A stretch of DNA of 64,000 bases, taken from contig OX485806.1 in NCBI GenBank assembly GCA_950295325.1, positions 42,034,001 through 42,098,000 of the forward strand, in the 5' to 3' direction. The notes beneath the pieces are model-generated. The model did no database searches. It was not told where the DNA came from and saw only the letters and a list, made by a program, of their open reading frames with translations. This stretch comes from Polytrichum commune (lineage: Eukaryota > Streptophyta > Polytrichopsida > Polytrichales > Polytrichaceae). A program made the translations under genes and the position numbers. Shown here piece after piece: positions 17,712-54,938 of the stretch (the first letter of the stretch is position 1; every line of letters starts with the position of its first letter).

Positions 17712-20700
17712 GAGCTCACCTTGGGTTTCATCACCGCATGCCTCATGCACGAGGTGTCCTAGAGGAACAAGAACGAGTCTCAAGGACATGATGTGGCCAT
17801 GGTGTCCCGCCAACCTCAAGCGTTTGACAACAATAAAAGGCCCACCGACAACTCAAAGTGCTACAATTGTGGTAAATTGAACCACATTGTTTATTATTGT
17901 CGAAGCAAACGCAAGGTGAATGCAGATATTGCAAGGTTGAACAAGGATTTTGCATTTGTTGTGAGACATGAAGCATCTACAAGCCCCGCCATTAGGTGGA
18001 TCGTTGATTCGGGGGCCTCCCAACACATGACGCCGCATAAGCATTTTTTTGACACATACGAACCCTTTTCGGGTCGCAAAATGTTTATGGGTGATTACAA
18101 CATGGTGAAAACCGTAGGCAAAGGCTCTATACTAGTGGAAACACGTGTGAAAGGTCATGTGCAGAGCATTAGAATGCATGATGTGCTCTACATGCCCAAC
18201 TTGCATTCGAACTTGCTTTCCATGAGCAAATTTATTTCAAGGAGTTTAAAGGTGCATTTCAACTCGTTGGGATGTGTGGTGAGGGCAAAAAATGGTGAGA
18301 TGTTGCCTGTTGTTTCATTAGAGTCCAATTTGTACCAATGAACACGAATGTGATGAATAGGGCCAAAACGAGTTCATTGGCACGTTTTTTTGGAAATTCA
18401 CATTCTTTGGAGTTTTGGCACAAGAGGTTGGGACATCTTAACGTGAATAGCGTAAAAATGCTTCAAAACATGGTTAGCAGGATGGACGTGGGAGTAGTGC
18501 AAGACGACGTGCATTCGTGAGAACGGTGCAAGGCGATCAATTTTGACTGACGGAGGAATATACGTCACGAAAATCTTGGAGCTTGTGCATTCCAACATAT
18601 GCAAGCTTATGAAAATGATGTCCATTAGAGATACAAGGTATTTTCTCACCTTCATTGACAATTTCTTGCACAAATTTTGGATGTATTTCCTTAAGGCCAA
18701 AAACAAGGTGTTGGTAAGGTTCAAAGTATGAAAAACCTTGGTGGAGAGGCAACCAAAGTACGTTGTGAAGGGTTTTATGATGAATTATGATGGATAATAA
18801 TGGGGAGCTTGTTTCAAAGGCTTTTGATTTTTTTAGCATACACGGTATTGCATGGCAAACCTCATCACCTTACACGCCACAACAAAGCGGGGTGGCAGTG
18901 CAAGCCAATTGAACCATCGTGAAGATGACACTGTCCATGACTCATGTCCAACACCTCGGCCATGAATTTTGGGTGGAGGTGACGTGTAATGCGGTGTACA
19001 TACGCAATTGGTGTCCAATAAAGGCCATGGAAGGAATGACGCCGGGTAAGCGTGGAGCAAGAGGATGTCGCACATCTTCCACATGCGCGTGTTTGGTTGT
19101 GTGGTTAAAGTTGGATTAAAGTTAGATTAAAATTGGAACAAAGTTGGACGTGAAGGGTGTTAAGTGTTTGTTCCTTGGATATTGCGAAGGCACAAAGGTG
19201 TATCAGCTCATTTACTTGGAGATGACGAAAATCATCAAAAATCCGGACATGGTGTTTTTTGAAGACAAAACACATTTGGAGGACTGTCCAAGTGGGAGAG
19301 TTGATAATACACTTGTGGTCAAAGTGGATGTATCCCCCAAATCAAAAGTGGAGGAGTTGGGGCGAATGGCAATGTTTCGGAGCCCAACAAGAAATTCGAC
19401 AACAAAGAGGAAGCGGAGGCCAACATTCCGGCCACATAATTCATTCTTAGTGGGAGGCCTCAAAACTTGACTACAGTAAGAAAAATGCAACCAAATCACA
19501 TCCAACATCGCAATATGACAATGAAACCATGGGCATTTATAGATATCCAGACACGGCACGCAAACTATTGGGGAATGGTGGAGAAACCACATTCCGCCAC
19601 AACGACGTAGAACATGCAAACATGGCAATCATTGAGGAACCTAGCAACTTAAAAGATGCAATTGAATTGAGTGATGCAAGCAAATGAGAGTTGGTTGTGC
19701 AAGAGGAGTACGAATATCTTATAGCCAACAACATGTCGGAGTTAATTTCATTGCCAAAGGGCCATAAGGCCATGAAATGCAAATGGGTTTTTCGCACGAA
19801 GAAGGATGCCAATTGCATAGTAGTACGTTTCAATGCAAGGTCGGTGGCCAAGGGGTGCTCGCAAGTGGAAGGTGTGAATTTTGGCAAAATATTTGCACCC
19901 GTGGCCAAATTCAACACCATTAGAGTCATACTCGCATTCAAGGCCACCATGGACTTAGAGATTCATCAAATGGACATCAAGACGACAGTCTTGAAAAGAA
20001 AAATGAACAAGGAAATCTACATGGAGCAACTAGAGGAGTTTGAGCAAAAAGGCCAATAACACCTCGTATGCAAGTTGAAGAAATCGCTCTACGGATTGAA
20101 GCAATCCAGAAGAGCATGGTATGAGTGCATATACATATTCTTTGTAAATGAAAACTTTACAAAGAACCTTGTGGACCACTCGTTGCATGTTCTACAAACT
20201 TGTGACTACATTGTGATTGTAATCATATATGTAGATGACCTCATCATTTTGGCAAACAATGTGGACATGATCAATGAATTGAAATCTAGCCTCAAGTGCA
20301 AATTTGAAATAAATGACCTTGGCGAGTTGCATTTCTTCCTTGGAGTTCATTTTGAGAAGGATAAGAGAACTTGCACCATTATCATGCATCAATGAAGCTA
20401 CATTGAAACCATTTTGGAATAATTTGGCATAGGTGATTGCAAATCCATTGAAATGTCGCTCGATGAGAAAACCTCATTGCCAAAGCTTTTGGAAGAGGAA
20501 CACAAGGAGCATTTGTACAAAATAAAAAATCCCGTATAAAAAAACGGTGCGGTTGTTGATGTACACGATGGTGGCTACAAAACCGGACCTTGCATTTGCG
20601 ATAAGCGTGGTAAGCCAGTTTATGTCGACACCGGGTCCAATGCATTGGATGGTGGTTAAGCGAATCATGTGATACTTGAAAGGCGCCTTAGATATGAGGT

Positions 20701-21937: not shown

Positions 21938-22642
21938 AACACAATATTCAATATTTTGAGAGAGTGGGATCCTATCAAAATAATATTGGCCATTTATCAA
22001 CCTAAAAGTCATGTTAGGTTGATAAATACTGAATTATACTTCAGACGTGTAGTTTCCATTAAAATGAGAGTATACTAAGCTGGGAAATCGATTCATTTAG
22101 GTTGAGTCGACCTAAATGAGGACAATATTTTGTCAATTTGGGTTGAGTCGACCTAAATGAGGACATTATGTTGTCAATTTAGGTTGAGTCGACCTAAATG
22201 AGAACAATATTTTATCAATTTAGGTTGAGTCGACCTAAATGAGGACAATTATGTTGTCAATTTAGGTTGAGTTGACCTAAATGAGGACAATTATGTTGTC
22301 AATTTAGGTTGAGTCGACCTAAATGAGGACAATATTTTGTTAATTTAGGTTGAATCGACCTAAATGAGGACAATTATGTTGTCAATTTAGGTTGAGTCGA
22401 CCTAAATGAGGACAATATTTTGTCAATTTAGGTTGAGTCGACCTAAATGAGTCGATTTCCCAGCTTAACATACTCTCATTTTAATGGAAATTACGGTGGA
22501 ATTTATGGCGGAGAATCAAATGTTTTTTTTTTAATTTGTACTCTACAACTTTCCAGTGGTTTTCATTTCATTCTTTGATAAATAATTTTCTTTATGTACT
22601 CTCAATTCACTGGAAAACTCTCATTTTAATGAATATTGTGTT
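21938..22642. mobile_element. Fold-back element with palindromic repeat array
   Basis: Outer inverted repeats AACACAATATTCA (21,938-21,950) and TGAATATTGTGTT (22,630-22,642) are flanked on each side by CACT. Inside is a second, longer inverted pair: 22,053-22,104 (from TTTCCATTAAAATGAGAG) and its complement at 22,447-22,490. Between them are nine tandem units of about 42 bp. No protein is encoded. The outer ends and the possible 4-bp target duplication do not match a superfamily I can name. Confidence 0.7.
22094..22455. repeat. Nine tandem palindromic units (about 42 bp)
   Basis: Units centred on TTTAGGTTGAGTCGACCTAAA, itself nearly self-complementary, alternating with GAGGACAATATTTTGTCAAT or GAGGACAATTATGTTGTCAA spacers that are also partly self-complementary. 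Unit starts fall near 22,094, 22,137, 22,177, 22,219, 22,259, 22,301, 22,343, 22,385 and 22,426. Confidence 0.9.
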
Positions 22643-24002: not shown

Positions 24003-24363
24003 TCACCCGGAGTAGGACGCTTAAGGGTGGGTGGGTGTTGGGTTAGCGTTGGGTGGGTGTTGGGTTGGCGTTGGGGTGGCATTGGGTGGGTGTTGGGGTA
24101 GTGTTGGGGTGGCGTTGGGTGGGGTGTTGGGTTAGCGTTGGGGTAGCGTTGGGTGGGTGTTGGGTTGGCGTTGGGGTGGCATTGGGTGGGTGTTGGGGTA
24201 GCGTTGGGGTGGCGTTGGGTGGGGTGTTGGGTTAGCGTTGGGGTAACGTTGGGGTAGCGTTGGGTGGGTGTTGGGTGGGCATTCTCGGTGGACGGGTTAC
24301 GGTGGGGTGAGTGTTGGGCGGGCATCTTAGGCGATGGGTTGGTGTTGAGTGGGTGTTGGGTGG
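24003..24363 (+). repeat. GGGTGTTGGGTTGGCGTT minisatellite (segment M)
   Basis: Variants of a 12-18 bp G/T-rich unit, ending in a less repetitive part (about 24,278-24,363) that is clearly homologous to 34,402-34,500 on the other side of the methyltransferase retroelement. M is therefore either part of that element's LTR or a local repeat the element inserted into. Confidence 0.8.
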
Positions 24364-24365
24364 GC

Positions 24366-24697
24366 TGTCACGGTGTGCGGCGTCGGCGGCCGCATCTTAT
24401 CCGTTGGGCTTCATCCATTTAGAGTTGGATGGATGAACCTTAGTTTTGGAAAGTGAGGCTCCTAAGTGAGGAACCTCCTCATTGGCTTGGCATTCTTGCC
24501 AAGTCAAGTCTTGTGAGTTAGTGTGTGGAGAAAGCTTGTGTGAGGTGTAGATTGCATGATTTTGCAATAAATCTTGAGTTCTTCTTTCCCTACTTACACT
24601 CTTGGATTCTTCCTTGGTGGAGTGAGAGATAGCTTGACTAGTTGTGTGCATTTGAAGAGAGATTTAGAGCTATTATGAGTGTTCTACTCTCTTCCTT
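24366..24697 (+). repeat. 5' LTR segment B
   Basis: Starts TGTCACGG and matches 33,931-34,262. Homology stops at CTCTTCCTT, where the two copies part. It is preceded directly by minisatellite M, not by segment A that precedes B at the 3' end. Confidence 0.8.
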
Positions 24698-25200
24698 TTC
24701 ACTTGGCAAGAATGCTTCATTTTTTTATGTTTTCTACTTCATTCTTGAGATGTAACGCGCAAGTGAGGGCGTGAAGACAAGGAGTGACGCAGTTGTGAAG
24801 TTCTGGAGCGAGAACACGCGGATTTGCGAAGCAACATGAAAAATGCTTGCTTGTGAAGGTCACTTCAAGGTGAATTGTGGTGAGAAAATCTCTAAATACT
24901 ACACGGAATTCTTTGTTATGAGTTGCCCACAAGCGTGAATTTATGAAGTGGAAGGTGGAGGAGCATTCTTCATCCTTCAAAGGGATCAAATTTTTAACAA
25001 AAAAAAAAAAAAAATTTAAGAGGAGAAGAAGAATGGCCAAGAGTCGGAGCTCCTGGCCGCCCTTCTGCTCTGGTGCGGCGTCAATCGGCGTCAATCGGCA
25101 TCCAACTAGCGGCTAGCGGTGGCCGCTACCCATTCCGCTGCCCAACCTGCTGCCCGGACGTCCGGGTATCGGGGACACTGTTGGGGATAACTCTGGAGGA

Positions 25201-25371: not shown

Positions 25372-26305
25372 AAGTCGGGACATTTTTGGGCATTAACCGA
25401 TTGAGACCCTAATGTTTGTAAGTCCAACCGCTTACTTGTTGACATTCTCCGAGTTCCGGTTATTAAATTGAGATATATTATACAAATGCCGCTAAAAAGA
25501 TATGTAGTTTTCTAGCAAACTTGAACTACAACCGGTTAATTGTAAAAGCCAACCGGTTCATTTTAAATTAGTTTTCGGTCCTTCCCAAGCATAGTTTAAA
25601 TATGACATTGTGGTGAGCTTAGTTAAGTTTAGTTTAATTTAGCTTAGCTTAGCTTTTCTTGTGTCATAGTGGATAGCAAGAGGGTTGTTCAAGCTTGTTT
25701 AGGGCTTCCCCACTATTATAATTTATTTAGGAATAGATTGTTGAGGGATTCTCGAGGGGTAGAGCATATTGTGTTAAGAAACACATATTCTAGGGACTTC
25801 AGGGAGGAGAGGATTTCATGTTGTAGTGCTAGATGAGAGATGTGCTTGTACAATTTCTTTTCTTAAGCAACAGGAGCTCCATATTTTGACCACCAACCGC
25901 AGGCGGGTGCCGGTTGGTCGCGGTCGCTTTCAATTTTTGTTTAAGTGTTGTTTTGGGGAAGAGGATCTAGTGCTGTTATTGCATTGTTCCTTGCATTTTG
26001 TTGTGGTACCTTCCCCCTATGGTGGGCTTGTTGTGTTGGAGTATTCCAACATTGCCCCAATTTGTTTGTTCTATATTGTGATAGGGTATTGTGGGGATGA
26101 GGTTGGATTAATGACCGACGAGACCCTTGTGTGTGCACCAAGTGGGCAGTGCTTGTTTTCCTTATGGTGAGGCTGGGTTGATGACTAGCAGACCATAAGT
26201 TTGGTGGTTTTGCAGGTGCAAGTTGTTTTTCACATTTTATTCCTTTATCTTGAAACCACATCAGTTTGGCTTGTTGGCTCCAGTAACCGAACCCATTGCG
26301 GGTTT

Positions 26306-28276
26306 ATGGTTACAACGCGGAGCCAACATTATCGTTCTCCGTCCCCAACATCCTCACAAGGTCAATCCTCAGACCTTTTGGATGTTGAACCAGTGGTAGC
26401 ACCCGACGAGGCTTTTAAGCCTATTTCGGCGTGGGGGACTGCCACTCGGTTTCACGTCCATTGGGTGGGATCCTTTGACGAGATGGAGGAGGAGACCCGA
26501 GGCGGCATCCGAGACCGATTTTCTGGTCGAGCAGGGACTATTTCCTTGCAAGATTGGAAAATTCGGTTCAGGACATGGATGCGGGAGAAGCGTCAACGGA
26601 ATACCAATTTCAACGATTGGTATGCGTTCGAGCTTCTTTCCCAACATTTGGAGCATGAGGCACTCCAGACTAATGAACAGTGGACGGAGGCTCATTGGAT
26701 GGAACTGCGCCAGGTTGAGTGATATTGGGAGACTCGGGTTGAGTTAGTATCCGCATTGAAGGAAGGCACAGCTTCCAGTTTGATGGCCGTTCCGGAGGTT
26801 AAGACGGAGGTACACGAGGGAGTATACGTGGTGGATGTGGAGGGAGCTTCTCCTATCAATCCCACGGCTCAGGGGCAAGCTCCCGCAACGGCGAGTACGT
26901 CGAGCCCCGTTCTTCCACTATTTCGGTATGCCCAGGCTACCCAGGCGGCTTTAGCCTCTTTAGGGGCTCCGCCAGATTTTGAGCCGTTGCAGGCTTTTGA
27001 GCTGCATCTACAGGAGGAATATGGAGGTTTCTGTAGGGATCAGATGCAACGCATACAAGACTTCAGACGGGAGATGGACGATACACCTCGTATTATGTAT
27101 ACGAGGTTGGCGAGGCTTGCCAGGGGATCTGGAGGTGTGTTCGCGGAAAGTCAGTTGGTGAAGGTGTTTTTGTCAAAGATTGACAAACGCCTCCTTGACT
27201 TGGCGTTGCCCAGGATCATCATGGAGTTTGGTGGTCAGGCGACACTCGCAGAGGCATTCGCCGTGGTAGAGCAGTGTGATCGTGCATTATGTCAGCACGA
27301 TGCCATTGACTTGGTGTCCTTACTAGTGGATTCTAGCAAGCCCCGGAGAGCTCCAGTTACGACTGCAAGATTGGCAGAGGCAGAGGCAGAGGCAGACAAC
27401 ATTTACCATTGTTGGTCTTGTGGGCAAGCATGCCACGCTAAGAAGGATTGTCCTTCGAAGCAAAGGCAAGCCCAGACTGTCGGTACTCCGAAGCGGAAAC
27501 CATTTGTTCCCGCTCAGGGTTTTGCGAAGAAGGCGGGTAATCAATTACCCAAACAGTTGAAGTGTTCTCATTGCGGGCGGAACAATCACGCGGTGGAGAA
27601 CTGTTTTGCTCTCCATCCAAAGAAACGTCCTACTTCCGAATGGGGAAAGGCCATGGAGGCGAAGATTGGTGCCTTGGAGGAGAGGCTCAAGAGTTTGGCG
27701 TCATCCGGCCAAATTTTGGACTCACCATCTACCTCCGGAACTAAGGCTAGTTCCTCCACTCCAGATTATTATATGTTCGAAGCTTCAGGACAGGTGGTGA
27801 GTTCTGCAGCTGTGACACGTGCTCAAACCGTGTCACGAGCCACGCCTTCGACCACAGGAGAGTCTGTGGACAGCTTACGAGCTCGGCACAATGGTCCCGC
27901 GGATCAGATTGGTCAGGCACGCCTTCCATTGTCTTTTGGATTGGCTAATGCTGCCCAATCTGTTAGTGGTCGTAATTCGAGCTTGGAGGCTTCGAATTCG
28001 ACGACCGACGTCGTACACACTTTGGCATCCAAAGTGTTGCATACACCTTTGTTTACAACGATGGATTGGTCGTCATCCGATATCCAACCAGCTAAGGTTT
28101 TTCACCTAGCAGGTAGGATATTGGAGGGGAAGGCAACCCCGTCTTCTCTTACTGTGGCTCAAGCAACCGCATACCTTCCTACCACGGAGGATCCTGAGGA
28201 AGCCGCCAAACGGCGAGCGAAGCTTGCGGAGGAGGCCATTGCGTCTTTTGACGCACACACCTTGGATGGCCAGTAA
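26306..28276 (+). pseudogene. Gag of the methyltransferase retroelement
   Basis: Structural protein that would package element RNA. I chose the ATG at 26,306 because the frame then starts MVTTRSQ, a common start of Gypsy polyproteins; the frame is open further upstream. A charged N-terminal domain (WKIRFRTWMREKRQRN...) is cut by a TGA at 26,720-26,722; the same frame resumes at once. The capsid-like domain spans about 26,930-27,300 (LQAFELHLQEEYGGF, MYTRLARLARGSGG, AESQLVKVFLSKIDKRLL). Two intact CCHC knuckles follow: CWSCGQACHAKKDC from 27,410 and CSHCGRNNHAVENC from 27,563. A Ser/Thr-rich tail leads to a TAA at 28,274, after which the protease continues in the same frame. The TAA could be the true gag end or a mutation. 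Confidence 0.85.
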
Positions 28277-28760
28277 CCAACCACATTTTATCATTCGCCA
28301 GCCTCCGCAGGCGCAACTTATCTATCCGATGTAGCTGCTCGACCTGCTCGCGAGCGTCGAGGCATTCGACCGGGCGTTGTACGGATGGTGAATGATATCG
28401 GCATTTTAATGGTCAGTCGGGCTGGGGGCAACCCTATTCGAGTTGCTCCCCAATGTGTGATGATGGATTCATGAGCACAACCTGTTATGATCGGCAAGAA
28501 GCTTGCGCAGGAATTGTGGTTGACGGCCGACGACTTGGCACCTTGTCCATTTACCATTGTCACATCTATTGGCCACGTGGAGCGGACCACTGGTTATACT
28601 CGGGAGCAGCTACAGCTTAGCTTCCGAGTGAAGCTTGGAGATTCACCCGCACCTCTTCTTCTCAGGTGTGCGGTGACGGATGCGACCAACTATGACATTT
28701 TAGTTGGTCAGCAAACACTTTATCCCCTCGGTTTTGGTTTGGACAACTGGACAGAGGAGG
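28277..28760 (+). pseudogene. Retropepsin-like aspartic protease
   Basis: The frame continues from gag. The active site is visible as MMDS followed by a TGA stop (28,472-28,474) and then AQPVMIGKKLA: the expected Asp-Ser-Gly-Ala has Gly replaced by a stop (GGA to TGA would do it). Downstream come a beta-rich body and the YDILVGQQTLYPLG segment that matches the second half of retroviral-type proteases. The enzyme would process the polyprotein. It is broken here exactly in its catalytic triplet. Confidence 0.8.
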
Positions 28761-29110
28761 CTTGGATTCGACTAGGTTGGTCAGCTGGAGACGGCCGTAA
28801 GGAACTTATTCTTGTGGCCTTTGCCGCGGCCGCCACCATCGAACCATTATCCATGGTTTTTGGGTGCAATGCTATTGTGGATACATTGCCTTATGGATCC
28901 GCATTATTGGAGGACTCATTGGCATTCATGGGGGATGTTGAAGACCCACGAGAGATGGCACCTAGACGTGCCTTGGTGCACCATCCTAAGGACCCTCTAC
29001 CTCCGTGGCATGATTCCTCCGGCTTGTTCCAAAAATGTGAGGACATTGTCCTCTCCCTTGGTTCTACCACACCTTTCATTCCGGATGGTTCATCCACGTT
29101 GGCACGTCCC

Positions 29111-30105
29111 ATTTTGTGGCGGCCGCCAGACACTGGAATTACTTTAGTGGAGTTGTTTGGGGGCATCGGCACGGGATTAGCAGCCGTATTGGAGGCTGGC
29201 CTTACACTCACACGGTATGTCTATGTGGACAACTCTCAAGTGTCCATCCGTGTGGCTCGTCACCATCTTCACCAATTAATGGTGTTGTACCCTCAGCAGT
29301 TGCCTTCAACTGCCATTCATGGGTGTTTTTCACGTCTCCCTCGTGATGTCACACTCATCAGTGATGCCGACTTACGACACTTGGGTCCAGTGGATATGGT
29401 GATTGCAGGATGGCCATGCCAGGGCCATTCACGTGCTGGAACAGGCGGAGGACTAGAGGATCCCAAGTCTAGTCTATTTTGGGACCTCATTCGTCTCATG
29501 CAGTGGTGGTATTCCCACCAATCTTCCCCTCCAGCATATATTTTTGAGAATGTACCTATGCTGGGAGACTCTCGGGTCAAGGTGTTGGAAGGCGATCATT
29601 ATGTTCGTCAACACCTTGGAGATCCCATTTTTGTAGATGCTGCGAGCATTGGTTCTTATGCCCACCGGCCTCGGTGGATTTGGACCAACCTCACACCATC
29701 ATCTACATTAGCTGCAGCATTTTCTGCAGTGCCTCCACCTTTTGATCAAAAGGTGGACAACATCTTGGATCCAAACCGGACTTCTTTGCCGGTTGTTCGA
29801 GATGATTTACCCCCGTTAGCATTGGTCAACAAAGTGGGGGCACCACGGCTAGCTTTCCCACATTTATGACGTTTCCACAGTCATTTTCTTTCCGCGATCG
29901 GGGGCCAGGTATGGTGTGGGATGCTCACACCAAAACCCACACCGAACCATTGGCAGATGAACGGGAGCGTGCAATGGGATTTTGCACTGGCACCACCGCA
30001 GCTCCTGGCCTTTCTGAAAGCCAACAACGCTTCATGTTGGGTTAAGCCATGGATCTTCATACTATGGTGTGGACTGTTGGTTTATGTCTTTCATGGCAAT
30101 GGCAT
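29111..30105 (+). pseudogene. Cytosine-5 DNA methyltransferase domain within pol
   Basis: Between protease and reverse transcriptase lies a C5-methyltransferase with motifs in canonical order. Motif I (S-adenosylmethionine binding) is LVELFGGIGTGLAAVLEAG from 29,144; motif II-like YVYVDNS is at about 29,216. Motif IV is IAGWPCQGHSRAG from 29,402, with catalytic Cys at 29,417. Motif VI is FENV from 29,543, and motif VIII is AHRPRWIWTNL from 29,660, closest to the DNMT3/DRM style. After a one-base frameshift near 29,860, motifs IX-X follow: EPLADERERAMGF from 29,944 and QQRFMLG-stop-AMDLHTMVW around the TAA at 30,043. All key residues of motifs I, IV, VI and VIII survive. The order I to X argues against plant DRM, whose motifs are rearranged. 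It would methylate cytosine in DNA, possibly element cDNA or the target locus (inference). Confidence 0.9.
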
Positions 30106-30117
30106 TGTGGTGACTAG

Positions 30118-30426
30118 TGGTTGTCTCTGGGGGCAGAGAACTCTGGTCAGGGGGCACAGCAGTCCACACCCATGGAGGAGGGAATTCACGCCATGGTTGG
30201 AGAAGCCGAACGAATTTCTCAATTCGAGCAGCATGTGATGGAGGAGCTTCGAGCTCAACATTTTTACACTGCTTCGGCTTCTTCGCCTCCGGTGGTGGCT
30301 TCATCATCACATATTGGTGGTGATGAAGAAATGCCAGACTCTAGTGCTAGCATTGAGACTGGGGGCATGGTTAACGCTCCCTCCTCTCATTAGCAATTAG
30401 AGTCTGTGCCAGCATCAGGTAGTTCT
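30118..30426 (+). pseudogene. Linker between methyltransferase and RT
   Basis: In the same frame as the polymerase: a helical Glu-rich stretch (AERISQFEQHVMEELRAQ, about 30,205-30,258) and a Ser-rich acidic stretch (GGDEEMPDSSAS), broken by stops at 30,115 and 30,391. No known domain; it probably serves as a spacer. Confidence 0.6.
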
Positions 30427-31920
30427 CCCTTGGTGGAGAGGGAGACTACAGAGTTTGATGATTGGCCATTGGAATTAGGCCCTCATCTCACTGGTGCCGA
30501 GGCACGGAAAGTACGAGCATTTATTCGCTCGTACCGTAGGTGTTTTGCTTTTAGCCTTCAGGATCTTGAAGGTTATAAAGGAAAACCCATCCACATTCAG
30601 TTGGAAGACGACCATCCCATTTTTCGGAGACCTTACAGGCTCAGTGTTTCTGAATGGATTGGCGTTCAGGCTCGTTGCCAAGAGCTTTTGGCAGCAGGGC
30701 TAATCAAACTTTCCAACGGGGAGTATGCTTGTGCTACGGTTATGCCATTGAAGAAGGATATCTTTGGCAATTGGACGGAGAAGCGGATGTGTGGGGATTA
30801 TCGTCCAGTTAATCGGAAGACCAAGTCGGATCGGTATCCCATGCCAATCCCGGAGGAGTTGTTCGATGCCATCGGATTTTCTCGGGTCTTTAGCACCTTG
30901 GACTTGAGGTCCAGATATCACCAACTCCCATTACTTACGGGAGATCGGGTGAAAACCGCATTTTGGGGAGTTGATCGTGATGGGAAGGATCAACTATACC
31001 ATTGGAAGTTTCTTCCATTTGGCCTCAAGAATGCGCCTGCTGAGTTTCAGAGAGTGATGGACCAAGTTCTCTTTGGCTTGCCTTTTGCTCGGTGTTACAT
31101 TGATGATGTGATCATTTTTAGTAAAACACCATAGGAGCATGTAAAGCATCTTCAAGCCGTTTTTGAGCGATTACGGCAGTGGGGATTGCGCTTGCACCAT
31201 GGCAAGTGCAAGTTTATCCATGACCGACTAGCATATTTGGGTCATATGATTGTTCCAGGAGGTTTTGGGGTACAACAAGCTAAGGTGGACGCCTTGCAGA
31301 AGATTTCGGCACTGGTTGATGTGCCAAGACTTTGTGCTTTCTTGGGCTTGGCGAATTACTATCGGCGATTCGTCAAGAACTTTAGCTTGATCACCAAGCC
31401 TCTCACCATTCTCACGAGCAAAGACCAACCGTGGACTTGGGGTTGTGAGCAACAACAGGCGTTTGAGACATTGAAGCAGAAACTGGGTACGGCTCCAGTG
31501 CTTCGACGTCCAGATGTCTCCAAATCTTTCCAGTTGCATACGGATTGGAGTTCATTGGGTTTGGGAGCAGTTCTCACTCAGAAAGATGATTTTGGCCGGG
31601 AGTATGTTGTTGCTTACGCTTCGCGAAGCAATAACACGACGGAGGCTAATTATTCATCATACAAGGGAGAAGCATTGGTGGCGGTATGGGCTATTGCCCA
31701 TTTTCGGCCGTATCTTTATGGTCAGCACTTTACTTTAGTGACTGACAATCAGCCGTTACGGTGGCTCATGGAGTCGGATAAGCTTACTGGCAAGCTTGCC
31801 AGGTGGGCTTTATTGCTCCAAGAGTATGACTTTGAGGTGGTACACCGTGCTGGGATTACCAACATGGATGCAGATGGACTCTCACGCAATCCAAGTCCTT
31901 CGGATGAGGATTTGACCGGG
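30427..31920 (+). pseudogene. Reverse transcriptase and RNase H (Ty3/Gypsy)
   Basis: RT runs from about 30,580 to 31,300. Fingers/palm show RMCGDYRPVNRKTKSDRYP, VFSTLDLRSRYHQLPL (first catalytic Asp), FLPFGLKNAPAEFQRVMD, and the active site YIDDVIIFSK with YIDD at 31,096-31,107. A TAG at 31,132 follows, and the frame then continues unchanged through the thumb/connection (LGHMIVPGG, CAFLGLANYYRRFVKNF). RNase H follows at 31,530-31,900 with HTDWSSLGLGAVLTQ, EALVAVWAI, LVTDNQPLRWL and HRAGITNMDADGLSR, so its acidic residues are present. The RT-RNase H-integrase order and sequence style fix the element as Ty3/Gypsy. Apart from the stop, this part is well preserved. Confidence 0.92.
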
Positions 31921-32079: not shown

Positions 32080-33345
32080 CCCGTATTGCATAAGCTTCAA
32101 CAGAGTACATTTTCTTTGTCTATTTCGGCAATGGAAAGGGATAGGATTGGACATCGAATAACAAGGTTCCGTTGGGAGAACGGTTTGTTATTTCGATTGT
32201 GGCCAAATGGGACAAGGCGTATTGTTCCTAGGCCGGATCAGAGGGCCTCCTTGGTGCGACAAGTGCACGAGGAACTTGGCCATTTTGGCATACGCAGGAC
32301 ACATTCGATGTTGCGTGGCCAATATTGGTGGACTGGCATGTATCAGCAGGTGGTTGCCTATGTCGGGAGGTGTGAAGTTTGTGACCGGGTCAAGTCTAGC
32401 TTTAACACCTTATCACCTCAGTTACAGCCCTTACCTACCATGGGATTGGGCTAACGTTGGTCACTGGACTTTGCAGGTCCGTTGGTGGTTACACCACGTG
32501 GAGCAAAGTATGTTTTGGTGATGGTGGAGCATTTTAGTAAGTGGATTGAGCTTGTTGCTCTACCCCAAAACTCTGCAGAGTTGGCCGCGACCGCCTTTTT
32601 GGATCGTGTGTTAGCACGTTTTGGAGCACCAGCTGAGGTGTTGACGGACCAAGGGAGGGAGTTCCTTGGTGCTTTTGAGGAGTTGTGCACTAAGGCTCTT
32701 ATAGATCACCGCACCACCTCTCGGGATCATCTGGAGGCAGATGGCTTGGCTGAACGGGTTGTTCAGACAACCAAGCGTGGCTTGAGGAAGTATGGATTAC
32801 TTCGGGGAAGCCACCGGGATTGGGACCTTATGTTGCCGTGGATTGCTATGGGCTATCGATTTAGTAGGCATGCCTCTTTGGCATCCTACAGCCCGTATCA
32901 ATTATTGTATGGACGTGAGCCTATACTCCCAAGTTTTATTCGGGAAAAGCTAGCTCCTGTTGTGGACTTAGATGACCCAAACATTTGGGCAGAGTGTTTG
33001 CAGGAGCGGGCTCAATTCTTCCAGAGAGCCATGCCAATGGCCATGGAGAATTTGTCCATTGCTCAGCACCGTGACACATTGCGTTATGCACGCATTCGTA
33101 GTGGTGCTTACCGACTTCAGTTGCGGAGATTTCGGCAAGGGGATTATGTTTATCTTCAACGTGAGGCGCCTACGACATTGGATGTCAGGGCAGGGCGCAC
33201 TATCCTTCGAGTGAAGGAGGTGTTGCCGAATGGTTTGTTGTTGTTGGAAGGCAAGGATGGCAGGGAATGTCGCGAGCATTCCAAAAACTGTGCCCCATGT
33301 CATCTACCCATTGAGGGTACAATTCATCATGAACTGGCCGTCGTG
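32080..33345 (+). pseudogene. Retroelement integrase
   Basis: An N-terminal HHCC zinc domain has His at 32,266 and 32,281 and Cys at 32,371 and 32,380 (HEELGHFG ... CEVCDR). The core domain has Asp at 32,467 (LDFAGPL), Asp at 32,647 (LTDQGREF) and Glu at 32,752 (DGLAERVVQ), spaced as D-D-35-E. A TAA stop at 32,452, five codons before the first catalytic Asp, interrupts the frame. The C-terminal part contains LRRFRQGDYVYLQRE and TILRVKEVLPNGLLLLEGKDGR, the SH3-like GPY/F-type region. No chromodomain follows; a PHD finger takes that position. Confidence 0.9.
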
Positions 33346-33537
33346 CCAGAGGGTCTTCCATGTTTTGTGTGTGGAGAGAAGAAAGGAGCAACTACTATGC
33401 TCTTGTGTGATCAATGTTAACGTGGTTGGCACATGGCATGTTTGAGGCCACCCTTGACTTCTCTACCATCTGGACAGTGGAGTTGTCCTTGCTGTCGAGG
33501 ATTTTCGGTACTTGGTGCTCCCACCAATCGTACTTAA
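33346..33537 (+). pseudogene. PHD finger at the C-terminus of pol
   Basis: In frame after the integrase: PCFVCGEKKGATTMLLCDQC, a TAA at 33,418, then RGWHMACLRPP and GQWSCPCCRG. Cys and His spacing is C-x2-C-x11-C-x2-C-x4-H-x2-C-x14-C-x2-C, with the stop codon occupying one residue between the fourth Cys and the His. This is the C4HC3 pattern of PHD fingers, including the conserved Trp two residues before the seventh Cys. PHD fingers bind histone H3 tails (known), so this module could direct integration to particular chromatin, as chromodomains do in chromoviruses (inference). The frame ends with TAA-TGA at 33,535. A further short frame (about 33,593-33,710) may belong to an older tail. Confidence 0.88.
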
Positions 33538-33812: not shown

Positions 33813-33822
33813 AAGGGGGGCA
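33813..33822 (+). other. Polypurine tract before the 3' LTR region
   Basis: AAGGGGGGCA directly before TGTCGCGATG. Position and form are those of a plus-strand primer next to an LTR beginning TG. Confidence 0.6.
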
Positions 33823-33929
33823 TGTCGCGATGTGGTGTTCATGTGTGACTTTGCTATGTTTTAGTGTTGTTTGTTAGTGGTGGTTGGTACTCGAGCTGCA
33901 GTGATACACGATCGGTATTTACACGACAG
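33816..33929 (+). repeat. Segment A (first copy)
   Basis: A 114-bp stretch that starts GGGGGCATGTCGCGATG and ends CACGACAG, repeated almost exactly at 34,267-34,380. The two copies flank segment B. Confidence 0.9.
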
Positions 33930-33930
33930 C

Positions 33931-34262
33931 TGTCACGGTGTGCGGTGTCGGCGGCCGCATCTTATCCGTTGGGCTTCATCCATTTAGAATTGGATGGATG
34001 AACCTTAGTTTTGGAAAGTGAGGCTCCTAAGTGAGGAGCCTCCTCCTTGGCTTGGCATTCTTGCCAAGTCAAGTCTTGTGAGTTAGTGTGTGGAGAAAGC
34101 TTGTGTGAGGTGTAGATTGCATGATTTTGCAATAAATCTTGAGTTCTTCTTCCCCTACTTATACTCTTGGATTCTCCCTTGGTGGAGTGAGAGATAGCTT
34201 GACTAGTTGTGTGCATTTGAAGAGAGATTTAGAGCTATTATGAGTGTTCTACTCTCTTCCTT
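33931..34262 (+). repeat. 3' LTR segment B
   Basis: Second copy of the 332-bp segment found at 24,366-24,697. Here it is sandwiched between the two A copies. Confidence 0.85.
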
Positions 34263-34266
34263 CTCT

Positions 34267-34380
34267 GGGGGCATGTCGAGATGTGGTGTTCATGTGTGAC
34301 TTTGCTATGTTTTAGTGTTGTTTGTTAGTGGTGGTTGGTACTCGAGCTGTAGTGACACACGATCGGTATTTACACGACAG
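34267..34380 (+). repeat. Segment A (second copy)
   Basis: Begins GGGGGCATGTCGAGATG and ends CACGACAG, followed at once by minisatellite-type sequence M' (34,381-34,520) homologous to 24,278-24,363. Confidence 0.9.
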
Positions 34381-34520
34381 GGCGTTGGATTCATGTTGGG
34401 TGGGCGTTCTCGGTGGACGGGTTAGGGTTGGATGAGTGTTGGGCGGGCATCCTTGGCGATGGGTTAGTGTTGAGTTGGTGTCAGGTGGGTGTTGGGTTCG
34501 TGGTGGGTGGGTGCTGAAAT

Positions 34521-35112
34521 AATTATGTGGTCAAATTTTAGGGACTACTCACTACACAATTGGATTTGCAACTTTTGTAGTTATATTGAACAAGTATCCG
34601 ATGACAAATGTCAGTTGCTTGTATGGTTGTAGTGAATAGGCGATTTCATATTTTGGATGGACGACTGACAAAGACACTTTACATCTCGATTCCATTTTGA
34701 AAACTTGAAATGACAATTTTCCTGATACAACGCAATTGTTGACTGCACGAGATGATGGTTTCTAAGGCCCCAAGCCATTCCAACGGAGAGAATTGTTGCA
34801 AGCAGAGTTGGAGCGGGAATCAACAACACACAACCAAATATAACATCATTAAATATATTACCACACAGAACCCCAATTCACTCGTCACATAAAACCCAAA
34901 CCAATATGTCCGTACAAATTAGGAGTATTGGAGAGAAAGCAACATCAAACAATCCGAGATGCAACATGCAACTGCATGCACTACAATCCCATGCCTGTAT
35001 TACCCAGTGTTGCAATGTCCATCACCTTCATAAATGGAACAGAAGTAATCCAGTAGTGACCTAATTTATAATGTATGCACACCTAATAAATCCAAAAATG
35101 GAGCACAAACCT
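34521..35112. other. Non-coding flank; no gene seen
   Basis: No domain recognised. It lies between the retroelement and the SIZ1/MA3 fragment and is probably intron or flank of the latter. Confidence 0.35.
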
Positions 35113-51540: not shown

Positions 51541-54500
51541 TCAGGCCCTGTACTCCTTGCAACGACTGCCCGCCGTCCTTGATGGAAAGCTCTTCCCGTT
51601 CAAGGTTTCCAATTGAAGAGAGTTGTTAGGAAACACCTCTCGAACAAGATAAGTCCCGAGCCAACATGCATCAAATTTACCCGGGAAGTCAAGCTTCCTA
51701 GCATCCTGAATCATCACCATCATACCTGGCAGTAGTGCCCTCTTCTTGTGTCGCTTGTCAAAGGTGATCTTCCATCGGCGTTGGATGGCCTCGATGTGTT
51801 GAGCTGACCTTCTCCTTCTCTCATCAAGCTCCTCCAATGTAGTTAGCCTATTCCTCAAGGATTGGCTATCCGTGAGACGAGATTGCACTGCCACTCGCAA
51901 AAACTCGACCTCAAATTTGATGGGTAAGGTCGCTTCTAACCCATACACCAAGGAAAATGGAGTTGCCTGTGTCGTTACCTTGAAGGTTGTTCGATAAGCC
52001 CACAATACCGCTGTTAACTTGACGTCCCAATCCTTCTTCGAATCAAGTACCGTCTTGCGAAGGATGCTCACCAATATCCCGGTAACACGCTTCGTTTGAC
52101 CATTAATCTGCACATGATAAGGAGTAGTTTTCCTATGGTCTATCTTAAATCTAGCTATTAACTCTTGAAACATCTCGTTCAAGAAGTGGGTGCCTCTATC
52201 GCTAACCAAAATCTTGGGACAACCGAACCTCGAGATGATGTTTTCATACATGAATGTGGCGGCATGGGCGGCCGTATTGGTCTTCACCGCCTTTGCTTCC
52301 GTCCACTTAATCAAGTACTCGGTAGCAACTATAATATAAGCCATATCTTTAGAAGAATGGGGATGAACCTCACCAACATAATCAATGTCCCATTTCTCAA
52401 AGGGAACTAAAGATAAGGATATGTGAAGAGGCATCTCCATGCGGAGGTCATTCCTCGCATACCTTTGACAAGCATCACATTTCTTTAGCATCCTTGAACA
52501 AGTCCGGCCAAAAGTAACATGCTCTAAGTATTTTTTGTCCAGTGAGCAATCCTAAGAAATGTCCACCACATGCACTATCATGACAAACTGCCAATATCGA
52601 GGAGGCATCGACCTCCGACACACACCGTCGTAAGATCCCATCCAGTCCCCTCCTCAATAGTCTATGGTATATGACTGTGTAATGCCGACTATTCACTATA
52701 ACCCTTCCCCTCTCCTCCTTTGTCCTATCGCCAGTCAATTGTTGAGTCGTGAGAAATTCCACGATGCCCGAGTACCAATCCGCCGTAGCCGTAACTAAGA
52801 AAAGGTTGTCGTGTCTCAAGTTGTCATCCACCGAACTGTCGCCCGCCTCATCAGACAATCTTGACAAATGATTGGCTTGGAGGTGCACACGTCCCGGTTT
52901 ATATTCAACCGTATAGTCGAACTCCTCCAAAAGTAGCACACATCTAGCCAACCTACCACTCAGCTCTGCCTTGTTGACCAATAACTTGATCGCCATGTCA
53001 TTGACAAAGAAAACTATTGGATTAGACATAAGATAATGGCAAAAAAATTTGACCGAGAAGACCATGGCCAAATACTCCCGCTCTGTGGTAGAATAATTTC
53101 TTTCGGCCGGTGTCAACTGTCGACTCGCATAAGCCACAGGTTGATCATTTTCTTTTCCTCCCGTCGCCTGACATAATGCATTACATGCAGCTACTTAGCT
53201 AGCATCACAAAAAATATGGAAAGGTTTCCCCCAGTCCGGTGGCACCAACACCGGATAGGTGCTCAATTTATCTCTTAATTCCTCGAATGCCCTTTGGCAA
53301 GCCTCTGTCCATTCAAACCTACAATCTTTTTTAAGCAACTGAGTAATGGAGACCGCTATCTTAGAAAAATTAGAAATCAACTCCTTATACCAACCCACAT
53401 ACCCTAATAACTTGGCTATACCCTTTGCATTTGTGGGAGTAGACAACTCGTCAATCACCGTTATCTTATCAAGATCTGGCTCTCTACCCTTTTCACTTAC
53501 CACATAACCCAATAGGATTCCCTTATACACACCCAAAAACGTCTTATCCGGATTCAACGCTAGCCTCATCTGTCTACACCTCACCAAAACCTCTCGAATA
53601 CACCCTATATGCTCACTCGAATTTGACTGAGTGCTAAATTGTCAATGTAGAATGTCATAGATTTGTATAGCAAGTCGGTGAAGATGTACATGACAAGTCT
53701 CTGAAACATGGCCAAACGTGCCCCATGAAGTAGTAAAAGCCATCTTGTGAATATCCTGCAATACTATGGCCATTTAGTTATAACCCGCATAACCATTCAT
53801 GAACGTATAGCGAACATGCCCTCCTACCTCCTCTAAAAGGAAAGTGATGAATGGTAAAGGAAAATGATCATTTTGTATGGAAGCATTTAATTTCTTATAA
53901 TATACATACACCCTCAACTTTCCATTCCTCTTCTTCACCAAGACCATCGGAGAGATCCAATCCGTAATCTTCACCGGCTTAATAAACCCGGCCTTCAACA
54001 ACCTCTCTAATTCCGCCTTAACCAACAATTGTAATCGTGGGTTCATCCTTATCTCATTTTGCCTAATTGGCCTAGCATCCGGAATCAAAGGAATGCGATG
54101 CTCCACCATCTCTCTAGGAATCCCTTTGAGCTCCTTATACGACCAAGCAAAGGTGTCACTAAATTCATCCACCAAATCGCTATATTCCTTGACCTCCTTC
54201 TCGTTCAACTTAGATCCCATCTTCATTTGTCTAACCCTCCCATTCTTTGTTGTCACATTCACATATTTCAAATCCGTTTCCAACACATGAGTTTGTTCAT
54301 CTTTGTTCCTATACCAATCTGGAGGAACCTTAGGATAATCCTTGACATCATGTTCCACCATTATGCCCGTTGATGTAATCTTGAAGTGCAGTGGCTCCTC
54401 CAATTTCTCCGCTTCCATAATAGCCTCCTCGTCTTCAGTCCCATCCACATGTACTAAACTAACATAATTCTCCTCCACACCATTCACCCAAGGTGTCAAT

Positions 54501-54820
54501 CCCCCTAAAATCCACTCCTCCTCGGTGAGTACCTCACATGGTTCCAATAAGGAATATTCTTTTCCTCTATAACTAATAACCTCATCGTTCAAATATGTAT
54601 GGTGAGACGTCACCATTACATCAAATTCCAATTCCGGATAATCCTTCAACCCAACATTCCTACCTTCCAAGCTTTTGGGTGTATTCGGTTTTTTAGCCCC
54701 CAAATACATTTCGAGGTTTGCGGGAGCCCTTTCAAAGGACTCCTCCATTTTTCTTAGCGATCCACCATCATGCCCACCATTGTCATTAGAACCAATGGTG
54801 TGGTCAAACTCCATTTGCAC
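51541..54820 (-). pseudogene. Ty3/Gypsy pol (protease spacer, RT, RNase H, integrase)
   Basis: Minus-strand order is normal. 54,820-53,774 holds the pre-RT region and RT N-terminus (FSDTFAWSYKELKGIP, EHRIPLIPDARPIRQ, ELERLLKAGFIKPVK, WISPMVLVKKRNGKLR). 53,587-53,195 holds the RT C-terminus (GILLGYVVSEKG, LLGYVGWYKELISNFS). Between them the catalytic motif reads YIDN (53,638-53,649) in place of YIDD. 53,137-52,475 is RNase H (AYASRQLTPAERNYSTTERE, VEYKPGRVHLQANHLSRLS). 52,491-51,541 is integrase: HHCC end CDACQRYA, WDIDYVGEVHPHS, LVSDRGTHFLN, and NGQTKRV where the Glu is lost. Style is Athila/Tat-like. Its 3' LTR is not seen left of 51,541. Confidence 0.85.
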
Positions 54821-54938
54821 ATGATCTTTGCTCCAATTTGAGCCTCATAACCTATTGGAAACCCCGGGCTCATCATCATGACCCGCATTTTTGATAGCCA
54901 TGTCTCCCTCAAAGTTCTAGCTCAAATATTGGAACCCT

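Follow-up and report, generated by a model that had tools for sequence, protein, structure and literature searches.

DNA methyltransferases (MTs) have been described inside retroelements, so far from algae. KnitGypsy-Dnmt3 of Klebsormidium nitens carries a Dnmt3-type MT in a Gypsy polyprotein, and this domain is under purifying selection (PMC5890265). Its repeats are given as "the same as that of a DIRS retrotransposon" together with Gypsy domains. Tyrosine-recombinase elements typically have split direct repeats, which are otherwise their hallmark, with KnitGypsy-Dnmt3 as the stated exception (PMC5890265). The SymbioDIRS-Dnmt3 elements of dinoflagellates place a Dnmt3-type MT in Pol between A-coding-B-A-B repeats and use a tyrosine recombinase (PMC5890265). 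When expressed in yeast, SymbioDIRS-Dnmt3 MTs carried out de novo CG methylation; the KnitGypsy-Dnmt3 MT produced no methylation, a result its authors call inconclusive (PMC5890265). Elsewhere, DNMT3 in LTR elements (called Copia) and DIRS elements of streptophytes and dinoflagellates receives a passing mention (PMC12344493), and one published opinion includes an argument resting on the absence of transposon DNA methylases in land plants (PMC6338049).

We analyzed a window of 64,000 nucleotides from the moss Polytrichum commune (contig OX485806.1, 42,034,001 to 42,098,000). An earlier note, made from the letters alone, had described a cytosine-5 MT embedded in a land-plant Ty3/Gypsy polyprotein and knew of no well-described land-plant case. 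The embedding and the moss host hold, but the element is not an ordinary LTR element, as it has split direct repeats, and the view of precedent was incomplete, as an element of the same kind was described from Klebsormidium in 2018. Judged by the published description, the moss element is the same kind as KnitGypsy-Dnmt3: both have a Dnmt3 MT without the DRM rearrangement, a Gypsy polyprotein, purifying selection and DIRS-like repeats. The moss element differs in its land-plant host and in having the MT ahead of a conserved leaky UAG, and an integrase PHD finger, 4-bp target duplications and a self-priming site were found in it. The main text of PMC5890265 contains no occurrence of "target site", "PHD", "readthrough", "self-priming" or "primer binding".

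All element features given below lie on the forward strand, and the target duplications are unstranded. MT motifs I-VIII occupy 29111..29865 and match PF00145 (5.4e-12). Among solved relatives of 29111-29866, DNMT3A and DNMT3B score best (human DNMT3A, 4.4e-11), and bacterial HhaI reaches merely 4.6e-4. Motifs IX-X and a C-terminal tail (29866..30393; DERERAMGF...LG.AMDL) follow in a different frame that contains stops in the window copy. Every motif named in the earlier note (I, IV, VI, VIII and IX-X) is present. Since WPCQG begins at residue 101 of the frame starting at 29111, the codon of the catalytic Cys starts at 29,417, in agreement with the position given there.

The ranking is the same when a 24-row alignment of MT relatives is compared with solved structures (DNMT3, ~2e-20; HaeIII, 4.5e-8; DRM, 5.9e-8). 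We compared an AlphaFold model (pLDDT 77.5) of P0017, an environmental relative, with the PDB using Foldseek, and all of the 50 matches listed belong to the DNMT3 family, with TM-scores to the target of at most 0.83. By sequence and fold, DNMT3 is the closest family among solved structures. P0017 itself was deposited in a metagenome bin of Candidatus Obscuribacterales, where it is probably a eukaryotic contaminant. The motifs of the element MT run in the canonical order, I to X, and lack the rearrangement that puts VI-X ahead of I-V in DRM enzymes. When the moss genome was searched with a fragment of human DNMT3A, 150 of 299 candidates were scored and 148 matches resulted. One match was conspicuous and proved to be a DRM exon, and the remainder largely coincide with the repeat places where the element MT matches. 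The one host methyltransferase gene recognized in this genome is a rearranged DRM. Because its order differs from the canonical order of the element MT, we reject a DRM origin; the element MT is not a copied DRM. A scan of viral contigs with the MT alignment returned three pattern matches and no relative.

The moss assembly that we searched comprises 407.8 Mb in 64 contigs, and nearly all of this length lies in seven contigs of 42-78 Mb. Its contig C8 (146,561 bases) carries plastid matK, for which the nearest named relative is Dawsonia at 89%, followed by Oedipodium (75%) and Tetraphis (72%), and one further sequence reaches 97%; this marks the host as a moss and very likely as one of the Polytrichaceae, to which Dawsonia belongs. 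The MT protein yielded at least 150 scored matches from 529 candidates, and PF00145 at least 123 from 353. These fall into two subfamilies, with 71-94% and near 62% identity to the window MT. Around the best MT matches we collected 30 loci, including that of the window. Protease-side sequence lies upstream of the MT in 29/30 loci and RT lies downstream in 28/30, which bears out the placement of the MT between protease and RT and answers the suggestion to look for further insertions flanked in this way. A search for intact copies had also been suggested, and open copies exist: for 22 of the 150 scored MT matches the frame is 1,340 codons long or longer and the match contains no stop. Catalytic motifs are widely kept among 37 distinct loci (WPCQG in 34, FENV in 35, HRPRW in 35 and ELFGG in 33). 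The earlier note had held that its reading would fail if other copies of the element lacked the domain and this one had insertion junctions, or if the domain were a host fragment found at this locus only. A lack of the domain in other copies was looked for and did not occur, and the MT is present in multiple copies in the same position.

The MT is part of a Ty3/Gypsy coding region. The gag region (26189..28276) contains two CCHC knuckles, identified by eye, and an in-frame stop; Pfam gave no match in the window gag region. An aspartic protease region with approximate limits (28400..28850) is interrupted in the window copy. In the related locus L011 the protease DSG motif is intact, and that locus matches Asp_protease_2 weakly (0.0041, below the cut-off). 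The gag frames (26189 and 26723) and the protease-MT frame (28475-29869) are the same frame, as had been claimed. Downstream of the MT lie RT (30394..31251; PF00078, 9.5e-16; in-frame stop at 31132), RNase H (31438..31827; PF17917, 3.9e-35; PF17919, 1.6e-33) and a DDE integrase with an H2C2 zinc domain (32233..33330, right limit approximate; PF17921, 8.4e-18; PF00665, 1.6e-14; in-frame stop at 32452). The closest solved structure to the L011 RT is Ty3 RT (1.5e-42). This domain order of protease, RT, RNase H and integrase, with a Ty3-like RT, places the element in Ty3/Gypsy (Metaviridae).

The earlier note placed one frameshift between MT and RT. This is true of the window copy, where RT begins at 30394, but it does not extend to the family. 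L011 carries MT and RT in one frame with a single UAG between them: the last residues of gag-protease-MT are ...NAPSSH, and beyond the stop the frame continues unshifted into RT. The frameshift is therefore damage to the window copy, and a programmed frameshift is rejected. The stop itself is conserved. In the window it reads UAG-CAA-UUA (30391..30399), a leaky-stop context of the tobacco mosaic virus type, and all 29 alignable loci of the 30 have TAG-CAR-YYA (TAG-CAATTA in 27 and TAG-CAGTTA in 2). At three second-subfamily loci, TAG-CAATCA is in frame in one; the motif is there but out of frame in the other two. All these variants conform to UAG-CAR-YYA, which is important for the readthrough extension of tobacco mosaic virus (PMC4132726). 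Conservation of the motif despite variation in its letters argues for a function. Because the MT precedes the leaky stop, as Gag does, it would be made in excess over the polymerase.

We calculated dN/dS pooled over open copies of the first subfamily, using pairs with dS above 0.02 and dropping locus L007, which overlaps L036. The ratio was 0.23 for the MT (24 copies; 252/276 pairs used), 0.15 for RT (20 copies; 177/190 pairs) and 0.33, with a median of 0.42, for the protease side (25 copies; 276/300 pairs). Between subfamilies the MT ratio was 0.12, at saturated synonymous sites. MT identity between subfamilies is ~62%, versus 85-90% for pieces of RT. Since the MT evolves faster than RT and has diverged more between subfamilies, its role is perhaps looser or under another pressure. 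The MT is a standing part of a multi-copy, selectively constrained retroelement family in this moss. In the window copy, in-frame stops interrupt gag, MT motif X, RT, integrase and the PHD finger and also occur at the protease, and the frame changes near 29866. The best explanation is that the family was recently active and that the window copy is a decayed relic.

The ends of the element have an A...B-A-B layout in place of a pair of flanking long terminal repeats. Repeat A1 (24366..24700) forms the 5' end, beginning TGTCAC, and is 97.6% identical over 337 bp to A2 (33931..34265). A polypurine tract, AAGGGGGG (33813..33820), precedes B1 (33823..33928), and a G-rich purine tract lies ahead of B1 in the 30 loci. 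B1 is 97% identical over 114 bp to B2 (34274..34379), which ends in CGACA at the 3' end of the element, so that the termini are TG...CA. Between B1 and A2, the two ends CGACA and TGTCAC are joined through a GC dinucleotide (33929..33930). A regex search over the 30 loci found this junction in 26, with GC in 24 and AC in 2. The window copy is flanked by GGGC on the left (24362..24365) and on the right (34380..34383). Its insertion site is a GGGT-rich minisatellite (24028-24365 and 34380-34530).

These boundaries recur across the genome. A 565-base query spanning B1-A2-B2 was matched from base 1 to base 564 or 565 in 40/40 scored of 1,062 candidates, and in 30/30 loci, window included, the 3' end stops at the same base of CGACA and is followed by differing DNA. 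At the 5' end, 39 of 40 scored genome matches align from the T of TGTCAC. Both ends were read in ten copies (the window and nine others); an eleventh was dropped, its 5' end not being TGTCAC. Eight of these ten have perfect 4-bp target duplications, and two match at 3/4 bases. A second-subfamily copy has the same A...B-A-B order and a GAAG duplication, with two gaps and zero substitutions between its A repeats and identical B repeats. The 4-bp duplication agrees with the DDE integrase as the insertion enzyme, and both are features of Ty3/Gypsy elements. DIRS, PAT and Ngaro elements have a tyrosine recombinase; the moss element has a DDE integrase instead, which also distinguishes it from SymbioDIRS-Dnmt3.

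Hand comparison placed a listed MT within ~15 kb upstream of 33 of the 40 scored B1-A2-B2 ends. We opened two of the other seven ends. One has an MT split by an insertion. The other, L088 (C4:58301201-58307600), has an A1-type 5' end and retains RT to B1; most of gag, protease and MT is gone. In 28/30 loci, B1 and B2 differ by a mean of 0.021 within copies versus 0.049 between copies, and in 17 of these 28 the copy's own B2 is at least as near as any other. Such closeness is expected if both repeats are renewed from one template in each round.

A putative primer-binding site lies directly after A1 (24702..24715). It is the exact complement of a putative self-primer inside A1, GCATTCTTGCCAAG (24490..24503), and shuffled sequences gave 0 complementary matches. 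In the one second-subfamily copy read, the A segment and the site after A1 are both changed at two positions and pairing is kept. These compensatory changes between subfamilies support self-priming, which has been proposed for Tf1/Sushi and Tcn1 elements (PMC6317226). Chromoviruses of the Tcn1/Tf1 type resemble the moss element in self-priming and in belonging to Ty3/Gypsy, but they have a chromodomain rather than a PHD finger, ordinary LTRs and no MT named in that survey of plants (PMC6317226). Apart from the five usual domains, aRH and two types of chromodomain are named in this large survey, and neither "methyltransferase" nor "PHD" occurs in its main text. Because their repeats are split, elements like this one may escape LTR-based annotation.

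We read a PHD finger at the integrase C-terminus (33361..33495), with a stop inside it in the window copy. At the integrase end of locus L052, Pfam identifies it as PF00628 (4.2e-11), and the closest solved PHD fingers are those of CHD4, PHF12, KMT2D and KAT6A. A strict PHD pattern is found in 19/30 loci, some with internal stops, and the finger is also present in a second-subfamily copy. Chromoviruses carry a chromodomain at the integrase C-terminus; the moss element has the PHD finger there instead, which sets it apart from them. Our literature search found no report of a PHD-bearing Gypsy element; passages that came up concern Ginger1 transposases and a reference to CR1-like LINEs. Ginger1 DNA transposons share a Gypsy-type integrase core, and in one of the listed families, Ginger1-9_HM, a PHD lies at the C-terminus (PMC2836005). 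They differ in being DNA transposons, in having the PHD together with Ulp1 and, as described there, in having no RT or MT.

Outside the moss, a first protein search with the MT found 54 relatives, mostly environmental plus three from Closterium, the latter with ~40% identity to the window over half of the query. A profile search found 18 proteins, all from Closterium. Both searches scored only the candidates sharing most words, so the lack of a taxon among the matches, as with Klebsormidium, means little. Among the Closterium proteins, some unite a zinc knuckle with protease and MT, and some extend as far as RT. P0175, P0176 and P0182 share the gag-protease-MT(-RT) order, and their MTs group with the moss family. 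They differ in that no stop separates MT from RT within a single annotated protein, although gene models may hide one, and in reading ECQ in place of PCQ at motif IV, as the environmental P0032 also does. We found no paper on these Closterium proteins. A midpoint-rooted tree separates 25 element MTs, moss and Closterium among them, from DNMT3A and two DRMs (100/99). An RT tree of 11 rows has weak support (83/85) and poor outgroups, and we do not take it as proof of one origin. The environmental P0054 has its MT after RNase H, a second architecture and perhaps a separate acquisition.

From the observed anatomy, conservation, constraint and insertion signature, we propose a replication cycle in which stoichiometry, packaging, methylation and benefit to the element are put forward conditionally. 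Most ribosomes would halt at UAG and release Gag-protease-MT, and a minority would read through into the polymerase. The MT would then be packed into the particle at Gag amounts. Synthesis of cDNA would be primed by the RNA's own A segment, paired with the site after A1, and B1-A2, containing both joined ends, would regenerate both termini. Insertion of the linear DNA would fall to the DDE integrase, whose PHD finger would read histone H3 at the target. The MT would most likely methylate cytosines, in CG by analogy with DNMT3 and SymbioDIRS-Dnmt3, either on newly made double-stranded cDNA or where the copy has just inserted, and the copy would thereby enter chromatin already marked. Such marking may either hide the element or restrain it. 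We consider this account, with a Gag-level MT in the particle of a self-primed split-repeat element inserted by a DDE-PHD integrase, to be probable. Of the roles that the MT could have, we infer self-methylation of cDNA to be the likeliest. Substitution patterns were compared among 27 of the 30 loci. C/T differences were 0.123 at CG, 0.095 at CHG and 0.078 at CHH sites, and transversions were 0.044 at CG versus 0.028 and 0.032 at CHG and CHH. Because CG transversions are raised too, the modest CG excess of C/T differences gives no pointer to self-methylation; it is at most a hint that the copies were methylated by someone.

Other explanations of the MT and of the element's structure have to be weighed against this cycle. 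The MT might act on host chromatin, either preparing or marking insertion sites with the PHD finger or spreading methylation over the host genome. The PHD finger at the integrase C-terminus and a canonical DNMT3-like MT suit this idea, as animal DNMT3 relatives act on nucleosomal DNA. However, the MT is encoded ahead of the leaky stop together with Gag, which is more in keeping with a component of the particle than with a nuclear enzyme produced alongside integrase, and the 30 loci have flanks unlike one another. We regard a host-chromatin role as unlikely. We give somewhat less credence to a non-catalytic or RNA-directed role, such as nucleic-acid binding in the particle. Such a role would accommodate the faster evolution of the MT than RT, the ECQ motif of Closterium and the inconclusive inactivity of the KnitGypsy MT in yeast (PMC5890265), but the moss catalytic motifs are kept, including WPCQG, HRPRW and ELFGG in 34, 35 and 33 of the 37 distinct loci.

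Two further explanations concern the element itself, and both are very improbable. An ordinary LTR retrotransposon, in which the B copy behind A2 arose accidentally, by nesting or in tandem, would share the TG...CA ends, the DDE integrase and the 4-bp duplications. Against this, flank rather than B lies ahead of A1 in the 10 copies with both ends, the B-A-B 3' end occurs in 40/40 scored matches, and the second subfamily repeats the A...B-A-B order. On these grounds an ordinary pair of 337-bp LTRs is rejected for these copies. The other explanation, chance capture of a host gene fragment at the window locus, is the least credible of all. The broken state of the window copy would allow it, but many copies hold the MT in the same position under purifying selection, 33 of the 40 scored 3' ends have the MT upstream, relatives exist in Closterium and environmental data, and the recognized host methyltransferase is a rearranged DRM unlike the canonical-order MT. 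The further copies refute a capture unique to this locus.

We return to the proposed cycle of in-particle methylation and its wider form. The moss family may represent a self-marking streptophyte lineage that is proliferating in a land plant and combines a Gag-level writer with an integrase histone reader, split repeats, DDE insertion and in-particle cDNA methylation. We hold this larger claim tentatively and give it less than an even chance. As far as we have searched the literature, what is new is the land-plant host, the high copy number with open frames among the copies, the covarying priming site, the leaky stop, the PHD finger and the target duplications, which show that an element with split repeats was inserted in the integrase manner. 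In a moss with many open copies, it becomes possible to test in a land plant why a transposon would carry an enzyme that silences transposons, and the element offers a test case for whether selfish DNA can mark itself epigenetically. The position of the leaky stop, behind the MT, yields a concrete prediction of the dose of the enzyme and of where it acts.

Several other features were observed in the window. A near-perfect inverted repeat of ~520 bases lies at 1634-2153 and is 97.5% identical to its own complement. A Copia-type remnant with a zinc knuckle and Pol_BBD is found at 17763-18341. Other Gypsy-type pieces occupy 51541-54844 on the minus strand, with an integrase core by Pfam and RT-like text by eye; no MT was seen there in the listed frames. 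A tandem array with a 41-42 base unit spans 22083-22497.
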